Virus record (IMG/VR): IMGVR_UViG_3300009102_000003
Location: 1 to 45,928 of that record
Direction: 5' to 3' (one strand)
DNA: 45,928 bases
Origin: a virus
The position numbers and the translations under genes are program-made. The notes below the pieces were generated by a model. The model was given only the letters and a program-made list of their open reading frames with translations. It did no database searches and was not told where the DNA came from. Shown here piece after piece: positions 3,233 through 42,681 of the stretch (position 1 is its first letter; each line of letters begins with the position of its first letter).

Positions 3233-3389
3233 GATTTCGCTTGTACTCATTGTTCTTCCTAGGTATTGGACGTTTGGCTTTGACAAGGTAGGGGCGGCTA
3301 CTCCTGATGGAGAAATGGATGCCACCTGTTTTGCCTTTCGCTTTGGCTTTATAGGTATTGACGTTACTCTCTATAGGCCAAATGATTGA
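3225..3389 (+). CDS. small hypothetical protein, 54 residues
   Basis: A short ORF bridging recombinase and SbcD-like genes. Its ATG overlaps the recombinase stop (ATGGTTGA) and its own stop overlaps the TTG start of the next gene, so it is locked into the operon. The protein begins with a hydrophobic strand (EISLVLIVL) and is rich in aromatic residues (RYWTFGFDK, CFAFRFGFIG), suggesting a small beta-sheet protein. No family recognised. The exact overlaps on both sides make it more likely real than chance. Confidence 0.6.
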   Translation: MVEISLVLIVLPRYWTFGFDKVGAATPDGEMDATCFAFRFGFIGIDVTLYRPND

Positions 3390-4336
3390 GATTCATTGTC
3401 TACTCGGACTTGCACCTTCATTGCTGGAGCTATGGTTCTAAGCTAATCGAAGGTCGCAACAGTCGGCTGCTTCAACAGATAGACGTTCTAAACCAAATGA
3501 AAAAGTATGCTGTGCAGCATGGCATACGGGACATCTTCTGTTGTGGTGATGTTACACATACTCAAGGCAGGACTGATGCTGAAGTATTGATGGCAGGCCA
3601 TGAGGTCTTTTCAGGGATCTCTGCGGATGGGATAAAGCAATGGTGGATTCCAGGGAACCACGACTACAAGGATCGGGCAGGCACAATACACTCGCTCTCC
3701 TGGCTAAAGGAGCTAGGAGCACTGGTCGAGAAGCAAGAATTTTTCTTGAACTATACCAATGGTACTTCTCTAGCGTTTTTACCTTACACCGAAAGCAAAG
3801 ACGAACTCCTAGCTTTTTTCAATAACGTCCCCGTAAACTCTATCTGCTTTATTCATCAAGGAGTTTCAGGGGTTCCAGTCAACAGTAAAATTTTCTTAGA
3901 CGAAATCTTTGATCCCGCTATAATTCCAGAGCATGTTGCCCATGTTTTCTCTGGACATTACCATGACCATAAGCTAGTATCCCCTAAGCTGACTATCCCT
4001 GGTGCGCCTATGCAACATACATGGGGAGATGCGGGACAGCCTAGAGGTTGGCTAGATTGTTCAGTAGATGAATTCGGAATAGTCATTAAGCATATCGAAT
4101 CAGATCATCCTAAGTTTATTCGTGATCTAGCTGAGCCTCATAAAGAGGGAGACTGGCGCGAGACTCTTGAGGATACTATGGCTGCTCCTAAGATCAAGCT
4201 AAGCGCAGCCGACTTCTCCGATCTAGACTTAATTGCAGAAGAGTATGCTACGAAGAAGAAACTTAATGCTCACACCAAGTCCATAGGAAAACAACTTCGA
4301 GCAGGAAAGTATGAAGTTCCAGTGGCTAAAGACTGA
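3386..4336 (+). CDS. SbcD/Mre11/gp47-like metallophosphoesterase nuclease subunit
   Basis: A 316-residue calcineurin-type phosphoesterase with the metal-binding motifs in order: D8-x-H10 (YSDLHLH), GDVTH, GNHD, an IHQG histidine and GHYHDH. These define the di-manganese nuclease centre of SbcD/Mre11/T4 gp47. The start codon is TTG, overlapping the preceding stop; no earlier start fits the conserved N-terminal strand. It overlaps the SbcC-like gene by 26 bases, as expected for subunits of one complex. Role: resect DNA ends to give ssDNA for the recombinase. Confidence 0.9.
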   Translation: MRFIVYSDLHLHCWSYGSKLIEGRNSRLLQQIDVLNQMKKYAVQHGIRDIFCCGDVTHTQGRTDAEVLMAGHEVFSGISADGIKQWWIPGNHDYKDRAGTIHSLSWLKELGALVEKQEFFLNYTNGTSLAFLPYTESKDELLAFFNNVPVNSICFIHQGVSGVPVNSKIFLDEIFDPAIIPEHVAHVFSGHYHDHKLVSPKLTIPGAPMQHTWGDAGQPRGWLDCSVDEFGIVIKHIESDHPKFIRDLAEPHKEGDWRETLEDTMAAPKIKLSAADFSDLDLIAEEYATKKKLNAHTKSIGKQLRAGKYEVPVAKD

Positions 4337-6206
4337 TAATGTATTCTCGATTAACTCTATCACTCTGGGCCTTGCTGACCTTGGCCTTGTCCTTGTTACC
4401 GGACATTCGTATGATGACGGTGGTTCTAATGGTAGTGGCAAGTCAAGCCTTGTATCAAAGTCCCTGGTATGGGGTCTGTTTGGCACTAGTCCTGACGGGG
4501 TTAGAGCAGACGATGTTGTTAATCGGCATTCTGGTCGTGGTCACGCCTTTGTAGAGATCTGCTTTACTTCTGATGATTCCCAGCACTACATCATAAAGAG
4601 AAGCCGAAACCCCAATAGACTTTGGCTAAAGACTGGGGCTGGCCAAGACCTAACCTGCCGCCTTGAGGTAGACACTCAGAAGCTTATCAACAAACTCCTG
4701 GGCAGAGATTTCAAGACCTTTGCTCAGACAGATTTCTTCGGCCAAGGCCGTCTTCTTTCTTTCCCTTCCTTGAGCTCAGCCGAGCAGTACAAAGTTCTAG
4801 AAACCATCCTGCCTCTAGAGAAACTCCAGACCTGGCACCAAACTACAATAGCCTTCCTTAAAACTATTGTCCATGAGAAGGAGGTATGCAGGATAGATGT
4901 GTTGCAATGCGCTGCTGTCATCTGCGCTCATGGGTTTACTATAGATAGGATTGAAGAGAACGCTAAGCAGTGGGAGATAAAGCAAGCTGAAGATATTAAG
5001 CAAGTTGAATTTCTAGTGAAGGAAGCCCTAGAAAGAAAGGTAACTAACGACAAAGATAGAGCTAACTTAGATACAGAGATAGAAAATCTTGGAGCTCCTA
5101 GATCTTTGAAACCTCTAAAGGAGAGAACAAAGGAAATTGGTAATGCATTTTTGAAATGGAATGAGGCTTTTCAAGAAATATTAACCCAAAGCGGACAATA
5201 TATATCACATAAAGATAGCCTAGAAAAACAAATTGCTTGTCTTAACTCTGATAGTTGTCCAACGTGTAAGCAGATCTGGCCAGACTTGCAGACTAGATTA
5301 GAGAAGAAAGTAAGTTTAAGTCTTGAGTTAGATGATTATAAAGAGAAGCTTAAGAAAACTATACAAGCTAAACAGAATATTACACAAATAATAAAAGGAT
5401 TAAATGAAGAGAGAGACCAGATTCAAGAGGAGATTACGGAGGAAGCTAATAAAGTCCATCACCTTCAGCTTCTTCAGGCTAGACGAATAGCTCTAAACAA
5501 AACTGTAGCCGAAGCAGACGTTATCGTTCAGACTGAGAAGCTGGAAAAGTACAAAGGATATTGGAATCCTTATCTAAAATCAATCGAGCAAGTGAAAGAA
5601 AGTATAGAACAAGAGTCGAGCAAAGAGGTTAAACTTAAGAATAGGCAAGCGACACTAGAAAAAGAAATAGATGCTATCGTTGTATGGAAGGAAGCATTCT
5701 CAAAGGATATCAGAACCTTATTGTTCGATAAGATATGTTCCTTCCTAAACACAGGTACGGAACAACATCTGAAGAAGCTGAACAATTCCCAGCTCCACGT
5801 AGAATTCTCCACTAATAAGTCTATGAAATCTGGTAAGACTAAAGAGGAATTTGCTCTACGTTGTTGGAACGACTTTGGTGGTAACTCCTTTGCTTCTCTC
5901 TCTGGTGGGGAAAAGCAAATGATTTCCTTCGCTATTGGTCTATCCTTAGCTGATCTAGCTGAGACACAGGTTAGACATTCTTCCAATGTCTTGATTTTAG
6001 ATGAGCCTTTCCTATACTTGGATGACAAGAACTGTGAAAGTGTGGTAAACTACTTAGTGGATGAGCTCATGAAAAGAAAGTCTACTGTCTTTCTTATCTC
6101 TAATGAGGATCATCTTAAAGCTCTTATACCCAATAGGATTCATGTCACTAAAAGAAAAAGGATAACCAGTGCTTCAGGAAAAGGAGTGATAACTAAAGAT
6201 GGGTAA
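4311..6206 (+). CDS. SbcC/Rad50/gp46-like SMC-type ATPase
   Basis: A 631-residue ABC/SMC-type ATPase. Walker A is G-S-N-G-S-G-K-S (38-45). A coiled coil (about 220-480) is interrupted by a zinc-hook C-P-T-C (C316, C319). The C-terminal half has the signature LSGGEK (about 540) and Walker B VLILDEP (about 562). The ATG at 4311 has an AGGAAAG site upstream inside the SbcD-like gene. The coiled coil is short compared with cellular Rad50 and similar to phage gp46. It should form the end-processing complex with the preceding subunit, consistent with recombination-dependent replication. Confidence 0.92.
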   Translation: MKFQWLKTDNVFSINSITLGLADLGLVLVTGHSYDDGGSNGSGKSSLVSKSLVWGLFGTSPDGVRADDVVNRHSGRGHAFVEICFTSDDSQHYIIKRSRNPNRLWLKTGAGQDLTCRLEVDTQKLINKLLGRDFKTFAQTDFFGQGRLLSFPSLSSAEQYKVLETILPLEKLQTWHQTTIAFLKTIVHEKEVCRIDVLQCAAVICAHGFTIDRIEENAKQWEIKQAEDIKQVEFLVKEALERKVTNDKDRANLDTEIENLGAPRSLKPLKERTKEIGNAFLKWNEAFQEILTQSGQYISHKDSLEKQIACLNSDSCPTCKQIWPDLQTRLEKKVSLSLELDDYKEKLKKTIQAKQNITQIIKGLNEERDQIQEEITEEANKVHHLQLLQARRIALNKTVAEADVIVQTEKLEKYKGYWNPYLKSIEQVKESIEQESSKEVKLKNRQATLEKEIDAIVVWKEAFSKDIRTLLFDKICSFLNTGTEQHLKKLNNSQLHVEFSTNKSMKSGKTKEEFALRCWNDFGGNSFASLSGGEKQMISFAIGLSLADLAETQVRHSSNVLILDEPFLYLDDKNCESVVNYLVDELMKRKSTVFLISNEDHLKALIPNRIHVTKRKRITSASGKGVITKDG

Positions 6207-9931: not shown

Positions 9932-10206
9932 AAGTAGAGGATATGGATGATGAAGAGTTCTTCACACATAAACGTGTCCAGAAATATGAGCATATAGATC
10001 ATCCTCCGCACTACACTAAGGGCGGGATCGAAACCTTAGACTTTATTGAAGCTAAGGACTTGAATTACCATAGAGGGAATGTTGTCAAGTACCTTGTTAG
10101 AGCAGGGCATAAGCCGAGCACTCCTGAGATAGAAGATTTGAGGAAGGCCAGATTCTATCTCAACAGAGAGATCGAGATGATGGAGAAAAAGCTTGCCGTT
10201 CGTTAA
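9922..10206 (+). CDS. DUF3310 family protein
   Basis: A 94-residue protein with the DUF3310 pattern: HPPHYTKGGIETLDFIEA, a GNVVKYLVRAG helix, and DLRKARFYLNREIE. I chose the GTG at 9922 because GGAGG lies seven bases upstream; ATG 9943 is the alternative. The family is common beside phage nucleotide metabolism and is often labelled nucleotide kinase without direct proof. Overlaps thyX by ten bases and the glycosyltransferase gene by 14. Confidence 0.8.
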   Translation: MEVKVEDMDDEEFFTHKRVQKYEHIDHPPHYTKGGIETLDFIEAKDLNYHRGNVVKYLVRAGHKPSTPEIEDLRKARFYLNREIEMMEKKLAVR

Positions 10207-13200
10207 GCAAGATGACGGGACACTCGTATGGGTGGACCCTACTGCTGCTAATGTAAAGGTCGTAGAGGCTGAAATCTCTGAGGCTCTGTTCGGTAAGCCC
10301 AATGTTACGTACCAGGAGAAGGTTAAGGCGCAACAAGAAGAACAAACCAAGGACCCCAGACCTCTTTTCACAGGGTCCAATAACTCTATCAATACCGCCC
10401 TCGCTAATATTGCTAGTCAAGGGGTCCAGCCTGTAGACATTATCCTTCCCATCTATGGCTCTATCCATATCGCATCTAAATGTATAGATGCAGTACTTCG
10501 TAGGACTAACTGGCCTTACAATCTAATCATAGTTGACGATGCCTCCGACTCTCCCACCAGAGAGTACCTCAAGACCAGGAAGTTTCCTGATAATGTGCGG
10601 GTTATATTCAACAACAAGAACAGAGGGTTTGCTGCCACTGTAAACCGAGGGATGAAAGAGAGCAAGAACCCCTACATCTGCTTCCTGAACTCAGATGTTC
10701 TCGTCACTCCCAATTGGCTTACGAAGATGGTCATGGCTTTGGAGTCCAATCCGAAGAACCAGATCATTAATCCTATCACTAACAACACCGCTCTAATCAA
10801 TGTTGATATGCAACAGGGACATTCCTACCTGGATATGAACCGAGCCCTGGAGGCTACTACTCAGCGTAGTTATCCTGAAGTCATGCCTACTGGATTTTGC
10901 TTCCTGTTCAAACGAGAGTTGATCTGGAAGATTGGCTTTCTAGATGAGGCTTACAAGAACTATGGTGAAGAGACTGACTACTGGATGAAGGTGATTACCT
11001 ATCTAGAGAATGGCTACTACATGAAGTATAGGGCTGCTCTTGCGGATGATACCTACCTTTTCCATGAGCGCGGCTCATCCTTCGGAGCTATGGGTGAATA
11101 CGCCCATCTTAGTCTTAGGCGTGGGTCCAATGATAGGTTCCATAGAGTCTGGCCACAATACGCTCAATGGATCAAGGGACATAATGCTAACAAAACTATG
11201 GCACCATTCAGAGCACCCTTTCCTGAGAAGATCATTACGAATAGGGACTCTGACTACAAGATTTGTTGGGTGGTTCGATCTGCTGCTATGTGCGGAGGGA
11301 TGAAGTACATAACAGATGTTGTCAATGAAATTAATGAGAGAGGTGGAGATGCTAAGATTGCCTTAGTTCATCGTAAGAAGGGCACCCCTGTAACAACCCT
11401 TACAGAGCTCCGCACTGCTCCAATTATATTTGACTCAGATAATGACTTTGAAAAGAACTTCTCCAGGCGGGTTTTCAAGAGTGGCATAGTCGTTGCAGCT
11501 ATCTCTGAAACTGCCTACCTAGTGAGTAAGATCTGCCAGAACAATTCTAGATTGGTTGGAGTCAATCACGTTCAATCATACGATCCAGCTATCGCTCCTG
11601 ATGCTAACACTAAAGCTATAGCGCATAAATCCTATGAACTGCTACCTCATACAATTGTGAATTCTAAGCAGATAGAACAGATACTAAAGAAAGACCATAA
11701 GGTTTCTCCTATGGCAACCATTTCTCCTGGTGTGGATAGGATGCTGTTCTACCCGCGTGGTAGAGAGCAGGGAGATGATAGACCTACCATTCTGCTGTCC
11801 CTGAATAGGGCGTATCCTTTCAAGGGAGCTGATAGAGGAGTTGCGTTAGCCAAGGAGATATGGATGCTATTCTCCAAAGCCGGGGTAGACATTCGTATCA
11901 TGGCGTATGGAGTTGAGGTAGTCCCCACAGCTCCATTCATTATCTGTCAGGGTCCTGTGAGCCAAGTCAGACTGGCCAATCTTCTTTCAACAGAAGTCGA
12001 TATCTTTGTAGATCCTTCCTCGTATCATTCCTATGGCCTTCCTGCCCTAGAGGCAATGGCTTCTGGTGTCCCTGTCGTTAGCTGGGATAACGGAGGGATT
12101 GGTGAGTTTGGGAAGGATGGCGAGAACTGTAGGATCTTTGCTAATGACAAATCTCCTAAGGAAGTCGCTCAGGGAATTTTTGATCTCTTGTCAGATGCAG
12201 AGCTACGAGAGAAGCTGGCTAGGAATGCTCTTACCAAGACTGTTCCAGACCATGATAGAGCTACATCGGTCCATGAGTTCATCTCTACGCTGGAGACTGG
12301 ACTAAAGCTTTCCTATCCCAAGCGAAAGATAGTATTCATCACACCCCATCTTAGGAAGTACGGTGGGCCAACTACTATCATCAAGGCTGCCAATGAGCTA
12401 GCCAAGCGGGGACATGACGTATCCATCAGCGTTATCTACACAGATATTAATCCTGATGTGTCACTTCAGAGTAAGGTCCCCATCAATGTAGACATTCAAA
12501 ACATCCCGGCCTGTGACGTTCTCTTTGTCAATTCAGACAACCCGGACAGCAAGTTCTTCTCTAATCTCCCTCAAGCCAAGCATAAGATTCTTTACAAGCT
12601 TTCTCATAATCCTAGGTTTCAAGATCTTGAGACCGCTTCTCTGAAAGAGAAGTGGAGCAAGATCGTTACCACCTCGGACTGGCTTGCTGAAGCCTGCAAG
12701 AACCCACAGAAGGGTTGGAAGCATCCCTCCCGAGAAGCCGAGAGGGTTGGCTGGTTTCACTATGCACACGGAACTTTCAATTGTCATCCAACAAAAAGAC
12801 AGTATGGATCAAAGGCTACTTCAATTATCATATCGACTCTTATCCATCATCATGAGCTCAAGGGAACAAAAGAAGTTATTGCTGTACTGGATAAGCTGCG
12901 AAGAAAGTATACCATGGAGGTCGTTGGAATAGGCGAAGTTCCACCTGACAAGGTAAAGCATCCTGATTGGCTAACTTATGTCTATGCTCCAAGTCGAGCC
13001 AAGATGGCAGATATCTTCAGGCAGACAGACATTTGGGTAGGAGCAAGTAGGACTGAAGGGTTGGGAAGGCTTGGCCTAGAATCTATGAGTGCCGGAGTGG
13101 CCTGTGTACTTTCAGATACCGGCCCCGAATACGCTAAGCATGAAGAAAACTGTCTGTTGTATCCCATAGGAGATAGTGCTGCGATGGAAGCTAGCATTGA

Positions 13201-13333
13201 GCGTCTCATCGAAGATAAGGAATTGTTCAAGAAGATTGTTATCAACGCATATGAAACGGCTGACCTGTACTCAGATTCAACAGAATTCGTACAAAACTTA
13301 GAGAAGGTAATCTACGAGCTATGTCAGAAGTAA
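10193..13333 (+). CDS. three-domain glycosyltransferase (GT2-GT4-GT4)
   Basis: A 1046-residue protein. An N-terminal GT-A/GT2 domain (about 80-330) has DIILPIYGS, LIIVDDASDS and an LNSDV metal-binding motif. A middle GT-B/GT4 domain (about 360-700) has CGGMKYITD, ISPGVD and YGLPALEAMASGVPVV followed by an NGGIGE loop. A second GT-B domain (about 710-1046) has YGGPTTIIKAANELAKRGH and a C-terminal EGLGRLGLESMSAGVACV. Start is TTG with GGAGA upstream. No membrane segment is visible. It heads four consecutive glycosyltransferase genes, suggesting a phage-made glycan on DNA, virion or host surface. The acceptor is unknown. Confidence 0.88.
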   Translation: MPFVKQDDGTLVWVDPTAANVKVVEAEISEALFGKPNVTYQEKVKAQQEEQTKDPRPLFTGSNNSINTALANIASQGVQPVDIILPIYGSIHIASKCIDAVLRRTNWPYNLIIVDDASDSPTREYLKTRKFPDNVRVIFNNKNRGFAATVNRGMKESKNPYICFLNSDVLVTPNWLTKMVMALESNPKNQIINPITNNTALINVDMQQGHSYLDMNRALEATTQRSYPEVMPTGFCFLFKRELIWKIGFLDEAYKNYGEETDYWMKVITYLENGYYMKYRAALADDTYLFHERGSSFGAMGEYAHLSLRRGSNDRFHRVWPQYAQWIKGHNANKTMAPFRAPFPEKIITNRDSDYKICWVVRSAAMCGGMKYITDVVNEINERGGDAKIALVHRKKGTPVTTLTELRTAPIIFDSDNDFEKNFSRRVFKSGIVVAAISETAYLVSKICQNNSRLVGVNHVQSYDPAIAPDANTKAIAHKSYELLPHTIVNSKQIEQILKKDHKVSPMATISPGVDRMLFYPRGREQGDDRPTILLSLNRAYPFKGADRGVALAKEIWMLFSKAGVDIRIMAYGVEVVPTAPFIICQGPVSQVRLANLLSTEVDIFVDPSSYHSYGLPALEAMASGVPVVSWDNGGIGEFGKDGENCRIFANDKSPKEVAQGIFDLLSDAELREKLARNALTKTVPDHDRATSVHEFISTLETGLKLSYPKRKIVFITPHLRKYGGPTTIIKAANELAKRGHDVSISVIYTDINPDVSLQSKVPINVDIQNIPACDVLFVNSDNPDSKFFSNLPQAKHKILYKLSHNPRFQDLETASLKEKWSKIVTTSDWLAEACKNPQKGWKHPSREAERVGWFHYAHGTFNCHPTKRQYGSKATSIIISTLIHHHELKGTKEVIAVLDKLRRKYTMEVVGIGEVPPDKVKHPDWLTYVYAPSRAKMADIFRQTDIWVGASRTEGLGRLGLESMSAGVACVLSDTGPEYAKHEENCLLYPIGDSAAMEASIERLIEDKELFKKIVINAYETADLYSDSTEFVQNLEKVIYELCQK

Positions 13334-31165: not shown

Positions 31166-32380
31166 TTAGAAGGTTGGGACGCTGAGGCCCGTGATCTTTG
31201 CCGTCTGGTTGACTATCCGAGCAACGTTTTCCCCGTAGTACTTCATGAGTACTGTAAAGGAGTCCATTCCCGGCACCCACGCCATATTGACGCGCTCATC
31301 AATCGAGAGGGGTCTAACCACGCCACGCTCTATTGCGTCCAGGCGAATCATGAATACCTCATCCGGTAGAGCTGCCCATGAAATGAACCATGGACGACCC
31401 TCGAACGTGGTAAGCGCCTGATCCGCACCGAGCTCCAGCCTCATGTCGTTGAACCGACGGAAAGGAAGAGAGATCTCGGTGTAACGGTCGAACTGATCCC
31501 AGTTGGTGATGAAAGCAAAGCCTTCCATCGACCCAACGTCGGTCTCGACCAAGAGCTGCTTGCGCAGTCTACGGAGCAGGGATTCGTCTAGAGCTGCACC
31601 ACCTGCCGCAATCGTCTTCGATTGAAGGATTGGGAAGGTCGTTCTGCTGAGGTTGTAAATGGTCCCAGTAGAGCTTACGATACCTGGGAGGCCAAGTGCA
31701 GTGATCTCAGAAGGTGCGGCAGCTTCAGACTGCTCACCTGAGATATAGATCCCATCATTGTCTGTAACTGAAACGGTAGAAGAAACCGTAATGGTCGCTC
31801 CTGATACGCTTCGGCTATTGACCGTGACTGGACCAGCCTGTCGGAGTCCTGTGGTGTTATTGAGGAATACGAGAACCTGACCCGTTCGGAAAGGGCGTGC
31901 ATCATCAACTGAAATCGTGGTCACATTGGCCTGTGTACCAGCGATGTTGGTGAGGCGGCCAGTTCCATCTGAGCGTAGGAACGTAACCTCGAAGTTGGCA
32001 CCTGCGCGCTTAACTGCTGTGCTAATCGCGTCAGTAACACCGGCTGCGAATGCGTCTTCCCCGCCTCTGCGGGACACCGCTTCTGCCAGACCTGAGAACT
32101 CTACCGTATGGTAGTACTTCTTAGGCCGGACACGATGCTGCTTAACGCGCTCGTTACCGGCTGCGGGCAGACGGTTATCGTCTGTTCCACGCCAACCACC
32201 ACCTGACTCATTACCATCGAGGCGGATCGGGAAGAATGCACCATCACCGCTGGGGATGAACCTTGTGTTCTCACGCAGTCTAGAATAAATAGGAGCTGAG
32301 AGTTGCTGCGCTTGAGCGATAAAGTCCACCACGTAGCGGCGAAGAAGCATGTCCCCGAGAGTCGTAAATGTAGTAGCCAT
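31166..32380 (-). CDS. major capsid protein
   Basis: A 404-residue protein. N-terminal helices (LLRRYVVDFIAQAQQLSAPIY) are followed by the GGGWRGTDDNRLPAAG and HRVRPKKYYHTVEFSG segments typical of HK97-fold capsid proteins of podovirus-like phages. An inserted beta domain (about 165-230, VDDARPFRTGQVLVFLNNTTG to SSTVSVTDNDGIYIS) lies mid-protein. The end has the long-helix/axial pattern DMRLELGADQALTTFEGRPW and VNMAWVPGMDSF. It directly follows the scaffold gene, and the pair are bracketed by hairpins, as high-expression genes would be. Confidence 0.85.
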   Translation of the reverse strand: MATTFTTLGDMLLRRYVVDFIAQAQQLSAPIYSRLRENTRFIPSGDGAFFPIRLDGNESGGGWRGTDDNRLPAAGNERVKQHRVRPKKYYHTVEFSGLAEAVSRRGGEDAFAAGVTDAISTAVKRAGANFEVTFLRSDGTGRLTNIAGTQANVTTISVDDARPFRTGQVLVFLNNTTGLRQAGPVTVNSRSVSGATITVSSTVSVTDNDGIYISGEQSEAAAPSEITALGLPGIVSSTGTIYNLSRTTFPILQSKTIAAGGAALDESLLRRLRKQLLVETDVGSMEGFAFITNWDQFDRYTEISLPFRRFNDMRLELGADQALTTFEGRPWFISWAALPDEVFMIRLDAIERGVVRPLSIDERVNMAWVPGMDSFTVLMKYYGENVARIVNQTAKITGLSVPTF

Positions 32381-32408: not shown

Positions 32409-33299
32409 TTATGCCTGATTGATCCGTTTCAGTTCGGCAGCTAGACCTTTACGGAAATCGTCCTCTGATTGGACAGGCTTTAGAAGCGTGCCCGTTGGAG
32501 TCTTGACTTCCTTGAGCTCTCCCCATTCGGTCTTGAGGTGCTGTGGAACTTCCTCTTCAGCAACCGGCTCAGTCACCTTAGCGGTTTGCTTAGTTTCTTC
32601 ACCCTTTGCTTCTGCATCAGGCTTCCCGCGTGGCTCACCGAAAAACTGAAGTACCTCTTCAAACGCTGCGGGAATCACTTCCGACAATGCGTTGGGGTCT
32701 TCTTCGATGGCCTCCCAGTCTACTGCGTCGGTCAGGAGTGTTGAGATAATCTCTTTATCCTGATCGCTGTAGTCTGGAGGCAGAGCGTCAAAATACTTCT
32801 CAGCCAAAAGGTCTGCTTTCATAAGCAGTAACTCGGCTTGCTGCTCACCAGCAATGTCTTCCATTGCTGTCTGTGTGGCGGCAAGAGCTGATTTTGTATC
32901 TACTGCTGCTTCCTCAGGAGTTTTGTCACCCTTGTCTACACTCTTTTCGATTCCTTGCAGAATATTGTCTAGATTCTGCACAAGATCTCGATGCTCGGGA
33001 TTGCCGTCAGCGGCTAGTTGCCGAATAGAGTTTACGAGTTGGGTATCGCTTTCCCTTGCTTCCAACAGTGCGACCATCTGTCCAAGTTCTTTGGTCCGGT
33101 CCTGTGACTCTGCTTCCAGAGCGTCAAACTTTTCCTTGAACTCATTCTTTTGATCGACTACCTCTTTGAATCTATCATAGGGAATTGGTTCATTTGAGGC
33201 TTTGCCCTGCTCTTCCTTGGAGCCTGCTTCTACTTTGTCAGTGGACGTTTCTGACTCTGTGGCTACTGCGTTGGCAGCAGCAATTTCGTCCTTCGCCAT
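32409..33299 (-). CDS. capsid scaffolding protein
   Basis: A 296-residue acidic, coiled-coil protein. It has a disordered acidic start, the IPYDRFKEVVDQKNEFKEKF helix common to phage scaffolds, continuing coiled coil (ALEAESQDRTKELGQMVALLEA), an acidic middle, and a basic C-terminal helix (FRKGLAAELKRINQA) of the type that contacts the capsid shell. It lies just upstream of the capsid gene. It organises procapsid assembly and leaves the mature particle. Confidence 0.85.
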   Translation of the reverse strand: MAKDEIAAANAVATESETSTDKVEAGSKEEQGKASNEPIPYDRFKEVVDQKNEFKEKFDALEAESQDRTKELGQMVALLEARESDTQLVNSIRQLAADGNPEHRDLVQNLDNILQGIEKSVDKGDKTPEEAAVDTKSALAATQTAMEDIAGEQQAELLLMKADLLAEKYFDALPPDYSDQDKEIISTLLTDAVDWEAIEEDPNALSEVIPAAFEEVLQFFGEPRGKPDAEAKGEETKQTAKVTEPVAEEEVPQHLKTEWGELKEVKTPTGTLLKPVQSEDDFRKGLAAELKRINQA

Positions 33300-35422: not shown

Positions 35423-35716
35423 TTATGCCTCTAGACCGAGATTGATATTCCGGTGCAGAGTTATCAGGGTTACCTTATTGCCAGCCGAGCCAACAAGGGT
35501 AACCGTATTTACACCGTCATCAGTGACGGTTACAGCCGCTTCGCCAGCATCTCGAACCTGTGCTGAAGAAGCGTTAGCGGCGGTATTCGCTAGACGTGGC
35601 ACCGTTACGGTGTCGCTAGCAGATACCAGAGTCACGTTACTGACGCCAATAACCACGTCAGCTCCCAGTTGTTTGACATCATTGAATGATTGTCCTGTTG
35701 GTGCGATAAGAGCCAT
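35423..35716 (-). CDS. small beta-rich protein (paralogue group)
   Basis: A 97-residue protein, beta-rich: GVSNVTLVSASDTVTVPRLA, an Ala/Asn-rich loop, then VTVTDDGVNTVTLVGSAGNK and VTLITLHRNIN. It closely resembles its neighbour at 35732, including the TLxTLH motif at the C-terminus. A jelly-roll or Ig-like domain is suggested. Confidence 0.6.
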   Translation of the reverse strand: MALIAPTGQSFNDVKQLGADVVIGVSNVTLVSASDTVTVPRLANTAANASSAQVRDAGEAAVTVTDDGVNTVTLVGSAGNKVTLITLHRNINLGLEA

Positions 35717-35731
35717 TTATTTTCTCCTTTC

Positions 35732-35995
35732 TTAGAGACCAGCAGCATTGCCAGTGTGTAAAGTAGTAAGACGAGTCTTCCCCTTCGATCCACCAGTCAA
35801 TGTTGCTACAGTACCAGAAACGGTAACCGTAGGAGCGGTTTGACCTACCCCTGGCAGGACTGCGGCACTGACGATTCTTTCACCAATATCCACTGTGTCC
35901 CCATCATTGTCGAAATTGACAATACTTGTTACGTAATGAACACCATCACGAAACGGATTGTCAATACTCTGTGCTTGAATTGCTAATGAAGCCAT
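35732..35995 (-). CDS. small beta-rich protein (paralogue group)
   Basis: An 87-residue protein: SIVNFDNDGDTVDIGERIV, PTVTVSGTVATLTGGS, then GKTRLTTLHTGNAAG. It shares the (D/S)DTV motif, the V(T)VSGxxxTL stretch and the final TTLHxGN with the 97-residue neighbour, and the first two with the 84-residue protein at 30234. Virion decoration is the favoured guess. Confidence 0.6.
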   Translation of the reverse strand: MASLAIQAQSIDNPFRDGVHYVTSIVNFDNDGDTVDIGERIVSAAVLPGVGQTAPTVTVSGTVATLTGGSKGKTRLTTLHTGNAAGL

Positions 35996-36808: not shown

Positions 36809-38041
36809 CTATCCGCCAAAAAGTTGTGTAGACATTGTTGGGCTAAAAGATTGTCTAATTCGAGTGCTAGCTTTCCCAGCTACTTTAGACATTCTGCGCT
36901 GTCTAGAAGTCCTAGACGCAAATCCCTTAGCACCAATTCGCTCTAGGGGCGAGGTGGAGGTGAAGCTCGCCATAGGACGTTGGTATTCTGACGGTCGTCC
37001 AGGCCCTCCCAGCTCCGTGCCACGAGTAGCAAAGTATCTTGAGAGGTTCGCCCCAGGCATGTTATAGCTTTCTTCACTAACTCTTCCAGACTTATCTAGA
37101 ATAGGAGGCCTGGGAGTGACTCGTTTGTGAGTTCCCGGCCCAGGTGTAGGTGGGACTCCAGCACTTCTAAACGTCTTTTTCATTTCATTCTGTTGCTGTA
37201 CTCTCCACTTTTCCCAACTCTTATATGTGTCTCTCTGTTGCCTTTCCCTTAGGCGTGCTCCTCTGCCAATTCGTACAGGACCCATTCTAGGTGGCATGTA
37301 GCCTTGCCGAGCACGCATACTCAATTGTCCATACGCTTCAATCTCTTTCTCAGCACCGGACTTGCCCATTTTACCAAAAGTTTCTTTTATGAAATCTCTC
37401 TGTTCACCGACCCGAGTGGGTCCTCTAACGTCACCAACCCCTTCGCCAGTTATACTTCTAGCCCAATTCTTCCTGACTGCGTTGATCTTATCTTGAAGGT
37501 TTTGAGCTTCTGTTGGGCCTCTAACGATTCCTCCGGTAGAGGGGTCGAATTGCATTTGCCTTGCAGTAGCTCTACGTGTGGCTCTTCCAATCTTGCTAAA
37601 TCTCTCCATCGAAGTACTGAATTGATCGAGCCCTCTACGTTTTAGCCCCATACGTTTCTGCTGCCTTGGTTCGGTTCGTCCTTCACCAACAAGCTGAGTA
37701 CCACGGAATCCAGTCTTGCGATCAAAATCTCGCTGGAATCCCTTACCTCCGCTCAGAGTACGTCCCAATGGACTTGGTTGTAGTCTAGAGCTACCAAATC
37801 CCCCCGTAGCCCGTCGCATATCCCGAGGATGTAGGGGCCTTTTTGCCCATGTGGGCGTGAACGCTGGTTTGTGAATGGTACTAGGAGGTGCTTCCTTGGC
37901 TATCTGTTGCCTAAACCGTCTTCGCCTAGCTTGCTTCGCAGCTTGCTTCCCCTCTTCAATCGTAGTATTAGCTTCACTGCGTTGTTGTTGAGCAGCTTTA
38001 ACTCGATCTAGGTAAACTTGTTTTACAGGACCAATAGCCAT
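36809..38041 (-). CDS. large arginine-rich protein, basic-battery member
   Basis: A 410-residue basic, low-complexity protein. It has an N-terminal coiled-coil-like segment (EEGKQAAKQARRRRFRQQIAK), then a Gly/Arg/Pro-rich body with repeated GRATRR, KRRG, RPPI, GRGARLRERQQ motifs, and short conserved-looking blocks (MPPRMGPVR, YNMPGANLSRYF). No enzymatic motif and no family recognised. Its ATG overlaps the cREC stop (TAATG), so the two are co-translated. Confidence 0.6.
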   Translation of the reverse strand: MAIGPVKQVYLDRVKAAQQQRSEANTTIEEGKQAAKQARRRRFRQQIAKEAPPSTIHKPAFTPTWAKRPLHPRDMRRATGGFGSSRLQPSPLGRTLSGGKGFQRDFDRKTGFRGTQLVGEGRTEPRQQKRMGLKRRGLDQFSTSMERFSKIGRATRRATARQMQFDPSTGGIVRGPTEAQNLQDKINAVRKNWARSITGEGVGDVRGPTRVGEQRDFIKETFGKMGKSGAEKEIEAYGQLSMRARQGYMPPRMGPVRIGRGARLRERQQRDTYKSWEKWRVQQQNEMKKTFRSAGVPPTPGPGTHKRVTPRPPILDKSGRVSEESYNMPGANLSRYFATRGTELGGPGRPSEYQRPMASFTSTSPLERIGAKGFASRTSRQRRMSKVAGKASTRIRQSFSPTMSTQLFGG

Positions 38042-38415
38042 TACGTACCAAAGGGTGTGTAGACTGCTTTGAGTCCAAGTTTCTCAATCCGCTCAGTCAT
38101 CTCCCTACCAGCGGGAGGATTCCAAGAATGTACTATAAACTGACATCCTCGTATAGCGTTCAATCCATCTGAATCTAGACTTTCTAAGTATCTTACAACT
38201 GCCATTCCACAGTTTTTGTCAAAGCTGTTTTGAGCTCCGTCGCCTTCTAAGTCATGATCCAGCCGTGCTTGAACTAGAACTGTTGCATAGTCTCGTAAAA
38301 CTGAGATGGCTTCAGGCGCAGTCTTGCACCAGATAGTATGATCCCGTAAATCAGGGGTCATCCGCTGATAGGCAAGGGCCGCCCTATTGGGATTGTCATC
38401 TAGAAAGAGAATCAT
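38041..38415 (-). CDS. receiver-like cyclic-phosphate-processing (cREC) domain protein
   Basis: A 124-residue protein with a receiver-like fold. It shows FLDDNPNR at residues 4-11, LDHDLEGDG at 52-60, and a C-terminal VHSWNPPAGREM (about 95-106). This set matches the cREC family (cyclic-phosphate processing receiver domain) proposed to act on RNA repair ends, more than two-component receivers, which lack the H-S-x-N signature. It sits between two arginine-rich virion-region genes and overlaps one. The role is inferred; no phosphatase test is possible here. Confidence 0.7.
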   Translation of the reverse strand: MILFLDDNPNRAALAYQRMTPDLRDHTIWCKTAPEAISVLRDYATVLVQARLDHDLEGDGAQNSFDKNCGMAVVRYLESLDSDGLNAIRGCQFIVHSWNPPAGREMTERIEKLGLKAVYTPFGT

Positions 38416-38418
38416 CTC

Positions 38419-39636
38419 TTATCGCCTTGCGAAGGGCGTAAAGGATCTAGAGCTTGAGCGAGCCGGTGAGACTTTTACTTGCGAACGGAACGAAGCGTAA
38501 GATCTCTTAGGGGCGCTGGGCCGAGGAGAGGTTGGTCGTCGGTAAGCTGCACGGGAGGGATACGAACCTTTAGGGGTAGGGGCTCTCCGCGTGGGTGTTT
38601 TATACCTGCTAACGGTGCCACGTCCACTCGGAGCTACGTAAGTGGAACCGGAAGGGGTGTATCTGGTTCGACCCCGCTGCCCCATGGCAGCCGTGGAAGT
38701 AGAAGGTCTATAGGTGGAGACTCTAGCAGCTCCGGTATAAGGATCTCTAGCTGCTGAGCTTCCACCTGCGTATTGTCGAGCTGTGGGCATTCGTCCGATG
38801 GTGGTAGGTGCGACCCTACCAATCTGGCGGTTGTACCCGCGTGTGATGGGAGCCTGTCTCCTAGCCTGATACCCGCGTGGAGTAATAGTTCTTTCACGTT
38901 TCGCGAATGCGCTTCTACCTTTCAGAACCTCTCTTCGTCGAGAAGCTATATTGGCTCGCTGAATTGGCCGATTCCTTGCTTGTAGTGCTTTTCGTTGTCT
39001 GCTAGCTATCCTAGCTGCTGCGGGGCTCCGCTTAAATTCTTTCAGCGTTCGTTCTCTTAACTTAGGTGCGCGTTGCCAAGCTCGAAATTTTTTGAGGGCA
39101 CCTACAGCAAGCGCTCCTCCTGCTGCTCCTGCGGCTGCTCCAGCGAATTTACCAGCCTTAGAACCGAAAAACTTGTATGCGCTTTCTGGACTGCTCTTTG
39201 CGTAAGCCTGCGCCGCCATGCCAACGGCCATCCCACCTAGCTTTCTAGCCTCCTTTTGACCACGAACCCTTCCTGTACGGAAGCGTCTGGTTATCATTTT
39301 ACCACTGGCAGGATCACGAACCTTAACGGTCTGACCTCTACTCTGTTGTGTCCTTCTTGCTCCAAACAGGATATCTCCTACCGATGATGCCCGCGTCCCA
39401 AGAGGACCAAGGGCACCAGCACCAGCTCGTAGTATTGATCCAGTCGTCCCCTGCCAGCGTTTTTGAAGGAACCGTCCAACCTTACCAGTACGTTTTCCAA
39501 TAAGTCCCTCTCTTCGGAATCTGCTGTACGCACTTTTGGCGCCGGTCACAAGTCCACGCAACCCACCCTCACCCGCCTTTGTCTGGGCTGGTCGTGCTTG
39601 TAATCCTAGTGTTCGGGTTGCTGCTAGTGTAGCCAT
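38419..39636 (-). CDS. large arginine-rich protein, basic-battery member
   Basis: A 405-residue, extremely basic protein. By my count it has about 66 Arg and 25 Lys against about 11 Asp plus Glu. A segment near 155-200 is Gly/Ala-rich and hydrophobic (KFAGAAAGAAGGALAVGALKKF). The last 180 residues are Arg/Ser/Thr/Pro/Tyr-rich with repeated RxxY and SxRP motifs, like histone H1 tails or protamines. The hydrophobic stretch plus basic tail suggests a DNA-binding or membrane-touching internal protein. No family recognised. Confidence 0.65.
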   Translation of the reverse strand: MATLAATRTLGLQARPAQTKAGEGGLRGLVTGAKSAYSRFRREGLIGKRTGKVGRFLQKRWQGTTGSILRAGAGALGPLGTRASSVGDILFGARRTQQSRGQTVKVRDPASGKMITRRFRTGRVRGQKEARKLGGMAVGMAAQAYAKSSPESAYKFFGSKAGKFAGAAAGAAGGALAVGALKKFRAWQRAPKLRERTLKEFKRSPAAARIASRQRKALQARNRPIQRANIASRRREVLKGRSAFAKRERTITPRGYQARRQAPITRGYNRQIGRVAPTTIGRMPTARQYAGGSSAARDPYTGAARVSTYRPSTSTAAMGQRGRTRYTPSGSTYVAPSGRGTVSRYKTPTRRAPTPKGSYPSRAAYRRPTSPRPSAPKRSYASFRSQVKVSPARSSSRSFTPFARR

Positions 39637-39812
39637 TACCTACCTAACCTCCCCTTAGACTTCGCCTTTCCTCTAAGAGGAATCTTTGCCCCATGCTTTC
39701 GTGCTTCACTTAGCGCAATAGCAATAGCCTGCTTCTGGGGTCTTCCAGAATGCACCAGCTCACTAATATTTGAGCCGACTGTCTTCTTTGATGTTCCTTT
39801 GAGCAGAGGCAT
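39636..39812 (-). CDS. DUF6496-like small basic protein
   Basis: A 58-residue protein starting [16 protein letters not shown]. The [22 protein letters not shown] pattern is that of the DUF6496 family of small phage proteins of unknown function. I chose the ATG at 39812, on the TAATG overlap with the previous stop, because family members start MPL; ATG 39821 adds three residues. Confidence 0.65.
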
Positions 39813-40183
39813 TAGTTCCATGCTCCTCTAAACCCTAAAGACCCAAGTCGTTTCCTAGCTCTGACATTACCAATAGCTCTAGATATTGGATCAGTGTTAG
39901 GAATATTTTGATCTCCAGCCATAGCTTTCTGAAAACGTGAAGGAGTAGTCTGGCCTACCTGGTATGCTTCGTTGTAGATTCCATCTATAAACTTGCGAGT
40001 ATCTTTCGGGTCTCGCTTTTCCCCAGGGGGAGGCTTAGGAATCCCAGTAACTCTTTCATATAGATTCTCTACATTGTCATTAAGCCGTTTTACTTCCTTG
40101 TCTTTAGCTGTAAGGGGTTTCCCTGTAGTAACAGCCTTCTTAGCTTTCGTGCGTAGCTTTGACTTTTTCACTTTTTCAGCCAT
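39812..40183 (-). CDS. small basic protein, basic-battery member
   Basis: A 123-residue basic protein. Lysine-rich start ([16 protein letters not shown]), a helix with [16 protein letters not shown], a Pro/Lys/Arg linker ([10 protein letters not shown]), and a C-terminal region ending with [11 protein letters not shown]. No family recognised. Overlaps the gene before by one base. Confidence 0.55.
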
Positions 40184-40386
40184 TAGAGTGCCCTTCGAGG
40201 CCTAGGTCTATGGCCAAGCTTGAAATTCTTTTGTCCTTTAATACGCCCACGAATCCTACTCTCAGCTCTGTTTTGCATTAAGAGTTTAGTAGGAGACATG
40301 CTATCTAGGAATTCTTTCGCACGTGTCCTGTCACCCATGAATGATGGGCTTTTAAGAATTGCAAAAGCTCGCCCTACACTAGCCAT
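40183..40386 (-). CDS. small basic protein, basic-battery member
   Basis: A 67-residue protein ending in a basic run (IRGRIKGQKNFKLGHRPRPRR). No family recognised. It lies between the portal gene and the 123-residue basic protein with a 9-base gap. Confidence 0.5.
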   Translation of the reverse strand: MASVGRAFAILKSPSFMGDRTRAKEFLDSMSPTKLLMQNRAESRIRGRIKGQKNFKLGHRPRPRRAL

Positions 40387-40395
40387 TACTTCCCT

Positions 40396-42681
40396 TTAAA
40401 CTGCTGGAGCTGCTGGGGGTGCGCCCCCTTGGCCTCCTCCACCTCCCGGTGGTTGCCCCTGCATCATCGCCATCTGCATCTTAGCAGCCTCCATTCTCTG
40501 AACGGCCTGCTTGTAGACCTCAATTAGTTGCAGCATCACCATCTGCTGCTCATCTGATAGGTCTTGGAATGCGTCCGACTTCATCTCGTCGGTTAGAATC
40601 TCCATCATGACATAAGGATCATCCTCAGGGAATGGAATGAGCCGGTCGAATTGTCCTGTCCTAATCCACGAAAGCATTCTCTTAGCCCGTTCAACATCTG
40701 GTCCCTGTGGTGCCAGACTCTTCTTGAAGCCGAGCTCCTCAACGAGTGCCTGCCGTAACTGTAGAGGCAAGGTCATGAGACCTGGAGCATACTGCATAAC
40801 CTCAAGTGCCTTAGCTTCTCGGGCTTCCTTACTGGTAAGGGCCATCGAAGCAGTGTCAATGCGGAGCACAACGTTGTCGGAAATGTCTGTTCCCTTGAAC
40901 GCATTAATCGTTAGTCTCGAATGTCGTTCCCTAGCTAGGATTCTAAGTCGCTCAGCATAGATTGGATCATCATCTACGTGCTTCATTACCTCTTGTAGCT
41001 GAGAGATTCCCTCTTCCTGAAGGGACTCATCCCATGATTGGAGAATGGCTGAACGAGAGGCTAGAGCCTGCCGTCTTAGAATCTCAATCATCGCCGCAGA
41101 AGAGACGCCAGTAGGGCGCTGTCCTCTTAGGATCTCTTCAGTTCCCGCAATGGACTCCATCTCCGCAAGCTGGGTCTCACGCTCACGCATGGCCCCTTCA
41201 GGGAAGGGAGGCGGGAAGATTGGCTCTGGCCTCTGGTTATTTGTTCGGCGTGGGTCCCACTGCCAAATCAGGCCTGGCCGACCAGACCAAATGTCATCAA
41301 CTGGGTGGGCACCCATCGGAACGCTCCAAGCTGAAATCGGAACGGTCCTTCGCCACATAATCATGGCTGTGTCAATCGCATTTACTCGCTTGAGCTTGGG
41401 GAGGAGCTTAGATATTAGAGAGCGTCCGTAGATACTCCCTACAATAGGCTCCCACCTGAATCTAACATAAGGATGCCACCTGTCGGGCCAGCGGTCATCA
41501 TAAGCTCTAGCCCCTATCTCTTTAGGAGAATCATAGATGACCTGATTCCCCGCAATTAAGATAGTCCGACCCTTAGGCCACCTTGGATTTGGCTTCCTAT
41601 CAAGGACACGAACTACGGTATGGTTATCCCAGGACTCAGGAGTTCCTACATAAAGAGAAGGACCGGGACCTTCAACTAGATCCGAAAGCCTCTCCCACCA
41701 CCATAACGGGAGATTCTGAATACTGTAGGTTCCTACTTCCTCTAGGCGATCAAGATACCATCCCTTTTCTTTTGTCAGATTTTTCTGTACCTCAACATTT
41801 CCGTACTTATCTTGTATCATCTCAATGGAGGTGTAGGTCTCCTTCATGATCCAGCCCATTCTCTCGCCATTCCATGTGTGGGCTGTAGGAAGATGCATGT
41901 TGAATGCAGAGACAACGTTACTTTCGATATCTCCGTAGACTATCTTTTTCTCATACTCGGGTCGGCCCTCCGCATCGAACTTTGTAACTTCTCTACCATC
42001 TAGAGGAAGATTAATTGCACGACCACCACCTTCAGGTGTAGCCTGTGCTCCTTCGGTCATCGTAGCTGGAACCGCCATGAGCCTAGGCTTAGTTGGGTCC
42101 CAGATGGTCTCACTCCAGCAAACACCAGTGCAGAGAAGCAACCTAGCAATCTCTCGCTTCTTCTCAGGCTGTTTTAGCTTCTCCCATAGATACTCAAGAG
42201 TGAGCTCTGCAATCTCAGCAGCAGCCTGATCTTCGGATCGGTCACTCTTTGAAATCGCTCTGGGCCTGGGCTTGTTCTCAGTTAGGAGGGCAATGTTAGT
42301 TTCGACGTATCGGCCCAGGAGATCGTTGACAGGCCTTGGAATATTCTGAAGAGCTTCTTTGATAACTGAGAGGTTGCCGTCTGAGTCCTTGGACAGCCGG
42401 GAGACAAGGATATCATCAATGTAATGTCTACCCGTCAGGAAAAGGATATTCTCAATCCACTGGACGGCTCGTACCCACTGCCTAGCCTGACGGTTTGCTT
42501 CGATGTAATAGGCGTAGTTGTTGATAGCAGCGGCAATCTGAGGATCGCCTGCTTCAAAAGAGTCAAGCAGATGGAGGTTGCCGTATTTCCAACGGTTGTC
42601 CTTAGGATCGACCCTAGGGACGTTAGGAGCATTATAGGCTAGCTTAGTTGTCTTAGGAGGCCTGCCTCGTCTTTTAGCCAT
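40396..42681 (-). CDS. portal protein
   Basis: A 761-residue portal. The N-terminus is basic (KRRGRPPKTTK). Then come the YIEANRQARQWVRAVQWIENILFLTG helix, IPRPVNDLLGRYVETNIALLTENKPR, and the mid-protein segment with RFRWEPIVGSIYGRSLISKLLPKLKRVN. A VSSAAMIEILRRQALASRS helix matches the stem of podovirus-type portals. The Gly/Gln/Pro-rich C-terminus (QGQPPGGGGGQGG) is disordered. It forms the DNA-entry ring of the head. A late promoter element (42711) lies 30 bases upstream. Confidence 0.8.
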   Translation of the reverse strand: MAKRRGRPPKTTKLAYNAPNVPRVDPKDNRWKYGNLHLLDSFEAGDPQIAAAINNYAYYIEANRQARQWVRAVQWIENILFLTGRHYIDDILVSRLSKDSDGNLSVIKEALQNIPRPVNDLLGRYVETNIALLTENKPRPRAISKSDRSEDQAAAEIAELTLEYLWEKLKQPEKKREIARLLLCTGVCWSETIWDPTKPRLMAVPATMTEGAQATPEGGGRAINLPLDGREVTKFDAEGRPEYEKKIVYGDIESNVVSAFNMHLPTAHTWNGERMGWIMKETYTSIEMIQDKYGNVEVQKNLTKEKGWYLDRLEEVGTYSIQNLPLWWWERLSDLVEGPGPSLYVGTPESWDNHTVVRVLDRKPNPRWPKGRTILIAGNQVIYDSPKEIGARAYDDRWPDRWHPYVRFRWEPIVGSIYGRSLISKLLPKLKRVNAIDTAMIMWRRTVPISAWSVPMGAHPVDDIWSGRPGLIWQWDPRRTNNQRPEPIFPPPFPEGAMRERETQLAEMESIAGTEEILRGQRPTGVSSAAMIEILRRQALASRSAILQSWDESLQEEGISQLQEVMKHVDDDPIYAERLRILARERHSRLTINAFKGTDISDNVVLRIDTASMALTSKEAREAKALEVMQYAPGLMTLPLQLRQALVEELGFKKSLAPQGPDVERAKRMLSWIRTGQFDRLIPFPEDDPYVMMEILTDEMKSDAFQDLSDEQQMVMLQLIEVYKQAVQRMEAAKMQMAMMQGQPPGGGGGQGGAPPAAPAV

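Follow-up and report, generated by a model that had tools for sequence, protein, structure and literature searches.

The cREC (cyclic-phosphate processing receiver) domain was defined by comparative genomics, in which its genes were associated with those of RNA ligases, sirtuins, and Nudix proteins (PMC7824862; PMC9503650). The whole family is experimentally uncharacterised, and the hydrolysis of cyclic phosphates is its predicted activity (PMC9503650). In the literature that we found, cREC is known only by its gene neighbourhood, as a predicted enzyme of RNA repair or of NAD-derived signalling. The RNA-repair cassettes of the Vequintavirinae, such as Escherichia phage V5 and Proteus phage Mydo, carry cREC with a T4-like RNA ligase on one side and a sirtuin on the other, and the acidic residues D6, D7, and D53 are retained there. 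Another predicted cyclic-phosphate domain, the 2H phosphoesterase, has an unrelated fold and is tied to portal-type genes: 2H domains, and not cREC, have been found fused to MuF or portal proteins, and these fusions are proposed to be injected enzymes (PMC9503650).

Here, we analyse a cREC gene from a different setting. The window, by which we mean the whole stretch of 45,928 nucleotides of IMG/VR virus record IMGVR_UViG_3300009102_000003, and its relatives represent an uncultured podovirus-like lineage whose cREC belongs to the same Pfam family as those of V5 and Mydo but follows the portal gene in the head module. Compared to other cRECs, the lineage copies lack RNA- or NAD-related partner genes in the records searched, have repeatedly lost the acidic pocket, and carry invariant residues of their own (W29, R75, E78, R109, and PFG). 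Unlike the 2H domains, they are encoded by a separate gene and have often lost the pocket, and unlike two-component receivers (REC, PF00072; PDB 3cfy, 2pl1), with which they have an alpha/beta core in common (TM about 0.6), they do not match PF00072, lack a conserved lysine as well as the fifth helix, and do not conserve the phospho-acceptor. The family is already known, while its occurrence in a head module and the repeated loss of the pocket seem to be new; a literature search, which left out most subscription journals, yielded no paper on a cREC in a head module.

Identity and predicted fold of the cREC protein

The gene lies on the minus strand at 38041-38415 and encodes 124 amino acids, from ATG to TAA. 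The initial annotation, made from the sequence alone, had described a cREC-like receiver protein of 124 residues with the motifs LDDNPNR, LDHDLEG, and HSWNP, overlapping a basic gene by its stop, and the sequence agrees on each point, on the minus strand. The protein matches PF20274 (cREC_REC) with 50.6 bits against a gathering cut-off of 27 (E 3e-13) and phrog_1479 of PHROGs with an E-value of 4e-10, and the strength of these scores indicates that the match is not due to chance. All residues of the presumed pocket (D6, D7, D53, H54, D55, H96, S97, and N99) are present. In the alignment, the acidic pair of beta-1 (D6-D7) is encoded at 38395-38400, the LDHDL residues D53-H54-D55 at the end of beta-3 at 38251-38259, and H96-S-W-N99 at the end of beta-4 at 38119-38130, and the protein therefore carries the beta-1 acidic pair, the beta-3 acid, and the H-[S/T] motif that mark the family. 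Other viral contigs carry relatives of 45-56% identity at the corresponding position. Two observations had been named in advance as evidence against a cREC, a better match to a true two-component receiver and the absence of H-S-x-N from close relatives. Neither was made, as PF20274 is the only Pfam family matched at E<=1, PF00072 included in the search, and 28 of 30 relatives have H-[S/T]-x-N. These sequence features support the assignment of the ORF to the cREC family, rather than to the true two-component receivers.

An AlphaFold2 model of the window protein, computed from 19 aligned sequences of the window and the loci, has five strands, a pLDDT of 91.8, and a pTM of 0.86. The modelled chain ends right after beta-5 and thus, unlike a classical receiver, has no fifth helix. 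Among the 50 best PDB matches in Foldseek nearly all are response-regulator receivers with a TM of about 0.6, and the top match among viral proteins carries the name cREC (TM 0.74). As modelled, the protein has the receiver-like Rossmannoid fold of cREC_REC.

Position of the gene beside the portal

On the minus strand of the window, the portal gene (40396-42681; phrog_156, E 5e-12; 55-61% identity to relatives) is followed by a gene for a 67-aa basic protein (40183-40386), which by phmmer recurs shortly after the portal in relatives, a 123-aa ORF, a 61-aa DUF6496 protein (39636-39821; PF20106, E 2e-7; phrog_2423, E 5e-17), a K/R-rich ORF of 405 aa with a net charge of +80 (38419-39636), cREC, and a K/R-rich ORF of 410 aa with a net charge of +51 (36809-38041). 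The upstream basic ORF ends 3 nt before the cREC start, while the downstream one overlaps the cREC gene by 1 nt (gap -1), the TAA of cREC and the next ATG having one base in common in a TAATG at 38039-38043. Small ORFs come next, then an ORF at 32409-33299, called scaffold-like from its position just before the capsid gene and conserved with that gene in relatives, and the major capsid gene (31166-32380; phrog_14242, E 2e-15; 70-93% identity to 47 loci). The capsid gene is followed by a match to SU10_adaptor (PF24175) and an internal-virion-protein match (phrog_511), which are the points of likeness to the SU10-type short-tailed head-tail module (PMC9509320); the comparison with Kuravirus covered the adaptor. 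The proposed description of this region as a basic virion block is fair in that K/R-rich ORFs lie between portal and capsid genes, while its wording as "ejected-type" is unproven, as the basic proteins flanking cREC have no family match in Pfam or PHROGs. Two small proteins of about 90 aa encoded at 35423-35716 and 35732-35995 share a repeated "FGIHKV...SSDTVTVP" pattern, and such proteins occur in tandem near the capsid gene of several relatives, including L013 (11991-12834) and L153 (7558-8163).

A first pass, combining cREC and portal scans, found 12 distinct lineage cRECs besides that of the window, each with the portal or capsid gene of the lineage on the same contig (L001, L003, L005, L006, L011, L014-L017, and L019-L021; L004 duplicates L003 and L018 duplicates L017), and it also met cRECs in unrelated contexts, for example beside glycosyltransferase or replication genes. 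As this sample had been picked mostly by cREC, it could not show how general the association with the portal is. Scans with patterns from single proteins missed most relatives and the capsid alignment was the productive anchor; used in a second scan that was blind to cREC, it returned 47 loci, which gave 25 non-redundant and complete-enough portal-to-scaffold intervals after repeats of one contig and near-copies were merged. cREC is present in 22 of these 25 intervals, starting in all scored cases 21-2,350 nt past the portal stop, while the next most shared family occurs in 8 and 88 of the 223 ORFs are singletons. In the other three intervals cREC is missing, and an HMM search at maximum sensitivity detected no hidden divergent copy there; these three form one clade nested in the capsid tree and need one change. 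Distances between cRECs track those between capsid proteins (Mantel r 0.66, p 2e-4). The presence in 22 of 25 intervals, the single loss clade, and the capsid-congruent distances show that cREC is a near-core gene of the head module, inherited vertically with the capsid gene. A single origin of the lineage cREC is not rejected (AU p 0.295), although the tree has long branches when other cRECs are included and cannot prove it. Members of the cREC-free clade (L012, L013, L066, and L070) have in the same interval a common ORF of 256-304 aa, a possible replacement.

The same gene had been expected next to basic proteins in relatives. This holds for many of them and not for all, and the constant feature is the position past the portal. 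Flanking ORFs are seldom alike between contigs and range in net charge from -13 to +149, and the idea that cREC always lies between basic genes was dropped on these grounds. In L006 only, a DUF1937 gene (PF09152, 9024-9395) is found directly downstream of cREC. Two cREC-bearing viral contigs of another kind carry arrays of short ORFs with "NSVWDSVYNSV" repeats (L156, 7906-10153; L159, 7946-9934).

In tblastn against 50,697 phage records neither the cREC nor the capsid protein of the window had a match, and the portal had a single one, of 22% identity. Scans of genome contigs returned none in the first round and one MAG in the second. Across 400 genomes of the phylum of this MAG PF20274 gave 39 matches, 12 of them above the cut-off, and most of the remaining genome matches are weak, partial, and located in longer frames. 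Two candidates, L103 and L109, were set aside as ordinary receivers from their LDVDM and KPFG receiver-type motifs.

Erosion of the acidic pocket

For comparison, cRECs from outside the lineage were taken from Escherichia phage V5, Serratia phage BF (three copies), Proteus phages Mydo and PM135, other viral contigs, and two MAG copies, with eight added by a later scan. In these non-lineage cRECs D7 is found in 23/23, D53 in 24/24, and H96 in 24/24, and one (L155) has E at position 6. Among 30 distinct lineage copies, which are related sequences so that the counts are not independent, D6 is kept in 28, D7 in 18, and D53 in 14 (E in 11, G in 5), while H54 is kept in 25, D55 in 28, H96 in 29, S/T97 in all 30, and N99 in 29. 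All five of D6, D7, D53, H96, and S/T97 are retained in 13 of the 30, the copy of the window included. The capsid tree requires at least six changes of D7, at least six of D53, and at least three of H54. D7 and D53 are both lost in 12 copies, D53 alone in 4, and D7 alone in none, a pattern which suggests that loss of D7 follows that of D53, although a phylogenetic pair test of this order had too few pairs.

The pocket was lost while the gene stayed under purifying selection. Across the measurable pairs, dN/dS of cREC is 0.07-0.22, and in the pair L043/L045, both of which are pocket-less (K7/G53/Y54), it is 0.084, compared to 0.063 for the capsid gene. Nine residues (A12, W29, R75, E78, M106, R109, G114, F122, and G123) are found in all 30 lineage copies and are variable elsewhere. 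Despite the loss of D6, D7, D53, and H96, the model of L044 (pLDDT 92.6) has the same fold, with receivers as its best PDB matches. From the dN/dS of L043/L045, the fold of L044, and the nine lineage invariants it follows that selection holds the fold and residues particular to the lineage, and not the pocket. The lineage is in this respect a natural experiment, in which a gene is fixed and under selection and its presumed active site has been lost repeatedly, and its natural pairs of pocket-intact and pocket-less copies make the cyclic-phosphate prediction of the family testable.

Possible roles in the head module

Since cREC is kept in relatives that have no presumed active site, a role in building or loading the particle is more likely than one in RNA repair. 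We suggest that cREC was recruited, probably once, into the late portal-capsid or head module in an ancestor of the lineage, where it is now the one constant gene of a hypervariable portal-to-scaffold interval. Its present role would most likely be binding by fold and surface, either as a portal-proximal assembly factor or as a packaged core factor, and by binding the portal or the basic proteins it may contribute to the loading or retention of the variable basic cargo whose genes surround its own. Some members, the window among them, keep what would be the ancestral cyclic-phosphate pocket; in others the pocket has degenerated, and there the protein would be a pseudoenzyme. Late expression and packaging in, or action on, the particle are suggested by the position of the gene, although location in a head module need not mean a head protein, and the loss of cREC from one clade indicates that it is not essential for the particle. 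For recruitment as a portal-proximal head-module protein that acts by binding, with catalysis optional, we consider the chances about even. We put forward more tentatively the full account in which a cREC of a defence and repair family became a nearly core protein of the head module, close to the portal, that acts as a pseudoenzyme in several branches and is constant amid variable, mostly basic, and possibly ejected cargo genes; the cREC fold would here have been put to structural or assembly use for the first time. As a counterpoint, 13 copies including that of the window have a whole pocket, and H96 and N99 are each kept in 29 of 30, and judging from these residues a ligand or a reaction of cREC may still matter.

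These whole pockets bear on the main rival explanation, that of an active cREC enzyme, packaged or expressed late, which acts in counter-defence by opening the cyclic phosphates in immune signals of the host (ADPr>p, cyclic nucleotides, or 2',3'-cyclic ends). The fusions of 2H domains with MuF or portal proteins would be a parallel case, and the predicted activity of the family (PMC9503650; PMC7824862), the intact pocket of the window, and the fixed place beside the portal are in favour of this explanation. However, pocket residues that other cRECs keep always or nearly always are lost in 17 of the 30 lineage members, by at least seven changes and with the gene retained, no fusion to the portal was seen, and no Nudix or sirtuin partner was found in the lineage records searched, which makes this explanation on the whole doubtful.

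The variability of the interval would also suit a passenger gene (moron) in a permissive portal-scaffold stretch, which is unconnected with the particle: genes other than cREC are gained and lost here, and one clade is without cREC. We regard this as unlikely, as cREC itself stays in place, with its presence in 22/25 intervals, a single clade without the gene, distances congruent with the capsid, and the low dN/dS of the measurable pairs.

The function proposed in the initial annotation, repair of RNA ends cut by host anticodon nucleases during infection, is very improbable. In V5-like and jumbo phages, cREC genes are associated with RNA ligases and sirtuins (PMC9503650), and our controls agree: V5, BF, and Mydo alike matched a T4-type RNA ligase and a sirtuin, which in V5 and Mydo lie with cREC within about 2.5 kb, while RNA_ligase was matched in BF and Mydo and Nudix only in BF. 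In contrast, none of 15 lineage records matched RNA_lig_T4_1, SIR2, KptA, Nudix, or 2H, and the single RNA_ligase match lies 75 kb from the cREC of its record; as these records are fragments, the result is suggestive and weakens the proposal rather than excluding it. KptA and 2H matched none of the 18 lineage and comparison records and both were matched in control genomes. In the window, a Pfam scan of 20 early/middle and 10 late ORFs identified RecA, gp32-like, SbcD-like, ClpP, RNase H-like, ThyX, and glycosyltransferase proteins and no RNA-repair enzyme, consistent with the earlier remark that no RNA ligase or Pnkp was recognised there. Among the window ORFs scanned there is thus no RNA ligase, kinase/phosphatase, KptA, or sirtuin near cREC of the kind that makes up a phage RNA-repair cassette, and the association with NAD/ADPr or RNA-repair genes, a contextual trait of the family rather than a sequence criterion, is absent from the lineage records searched. 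Neither the placement among head genes nor the loss of the pocket fits such a function. A true two-component receiver, accepting a phosphoryl group from a host kinase, is the least credible explanation, for although the fold is that of a receiver and the window has D6, D7, and D53, the model has no fifth helix, PF00072 is not matched, the beta-5 lysine is found in 6 of 30 copies (T in the window), and 16 of 30 have E or G in place of the phospho-acceptor.

Recruitment as a head-module protein would point to an unrecognised portal-proximal component in a lineage whose capsid is foreign to the phage records searched, and it makes the portal-to-scaffold interval a place to seek unknown cargo proteins. 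Outside the head module, the plus strand of the window has at 3386-6206 a gene for an SbcD-like calcineurin phosphoesterase adjoining that of an SbcC-like protein, in an early cluster which also holds the RecA, gp32-like, ClpP, and ThyX genes. Further along the same strand, at 10193-13333, a chain of 1,046 aa combines one GT2-type and two GT4-type glycosyltransferase regions, and three more glycosyltransferase-like ORFs come after it.
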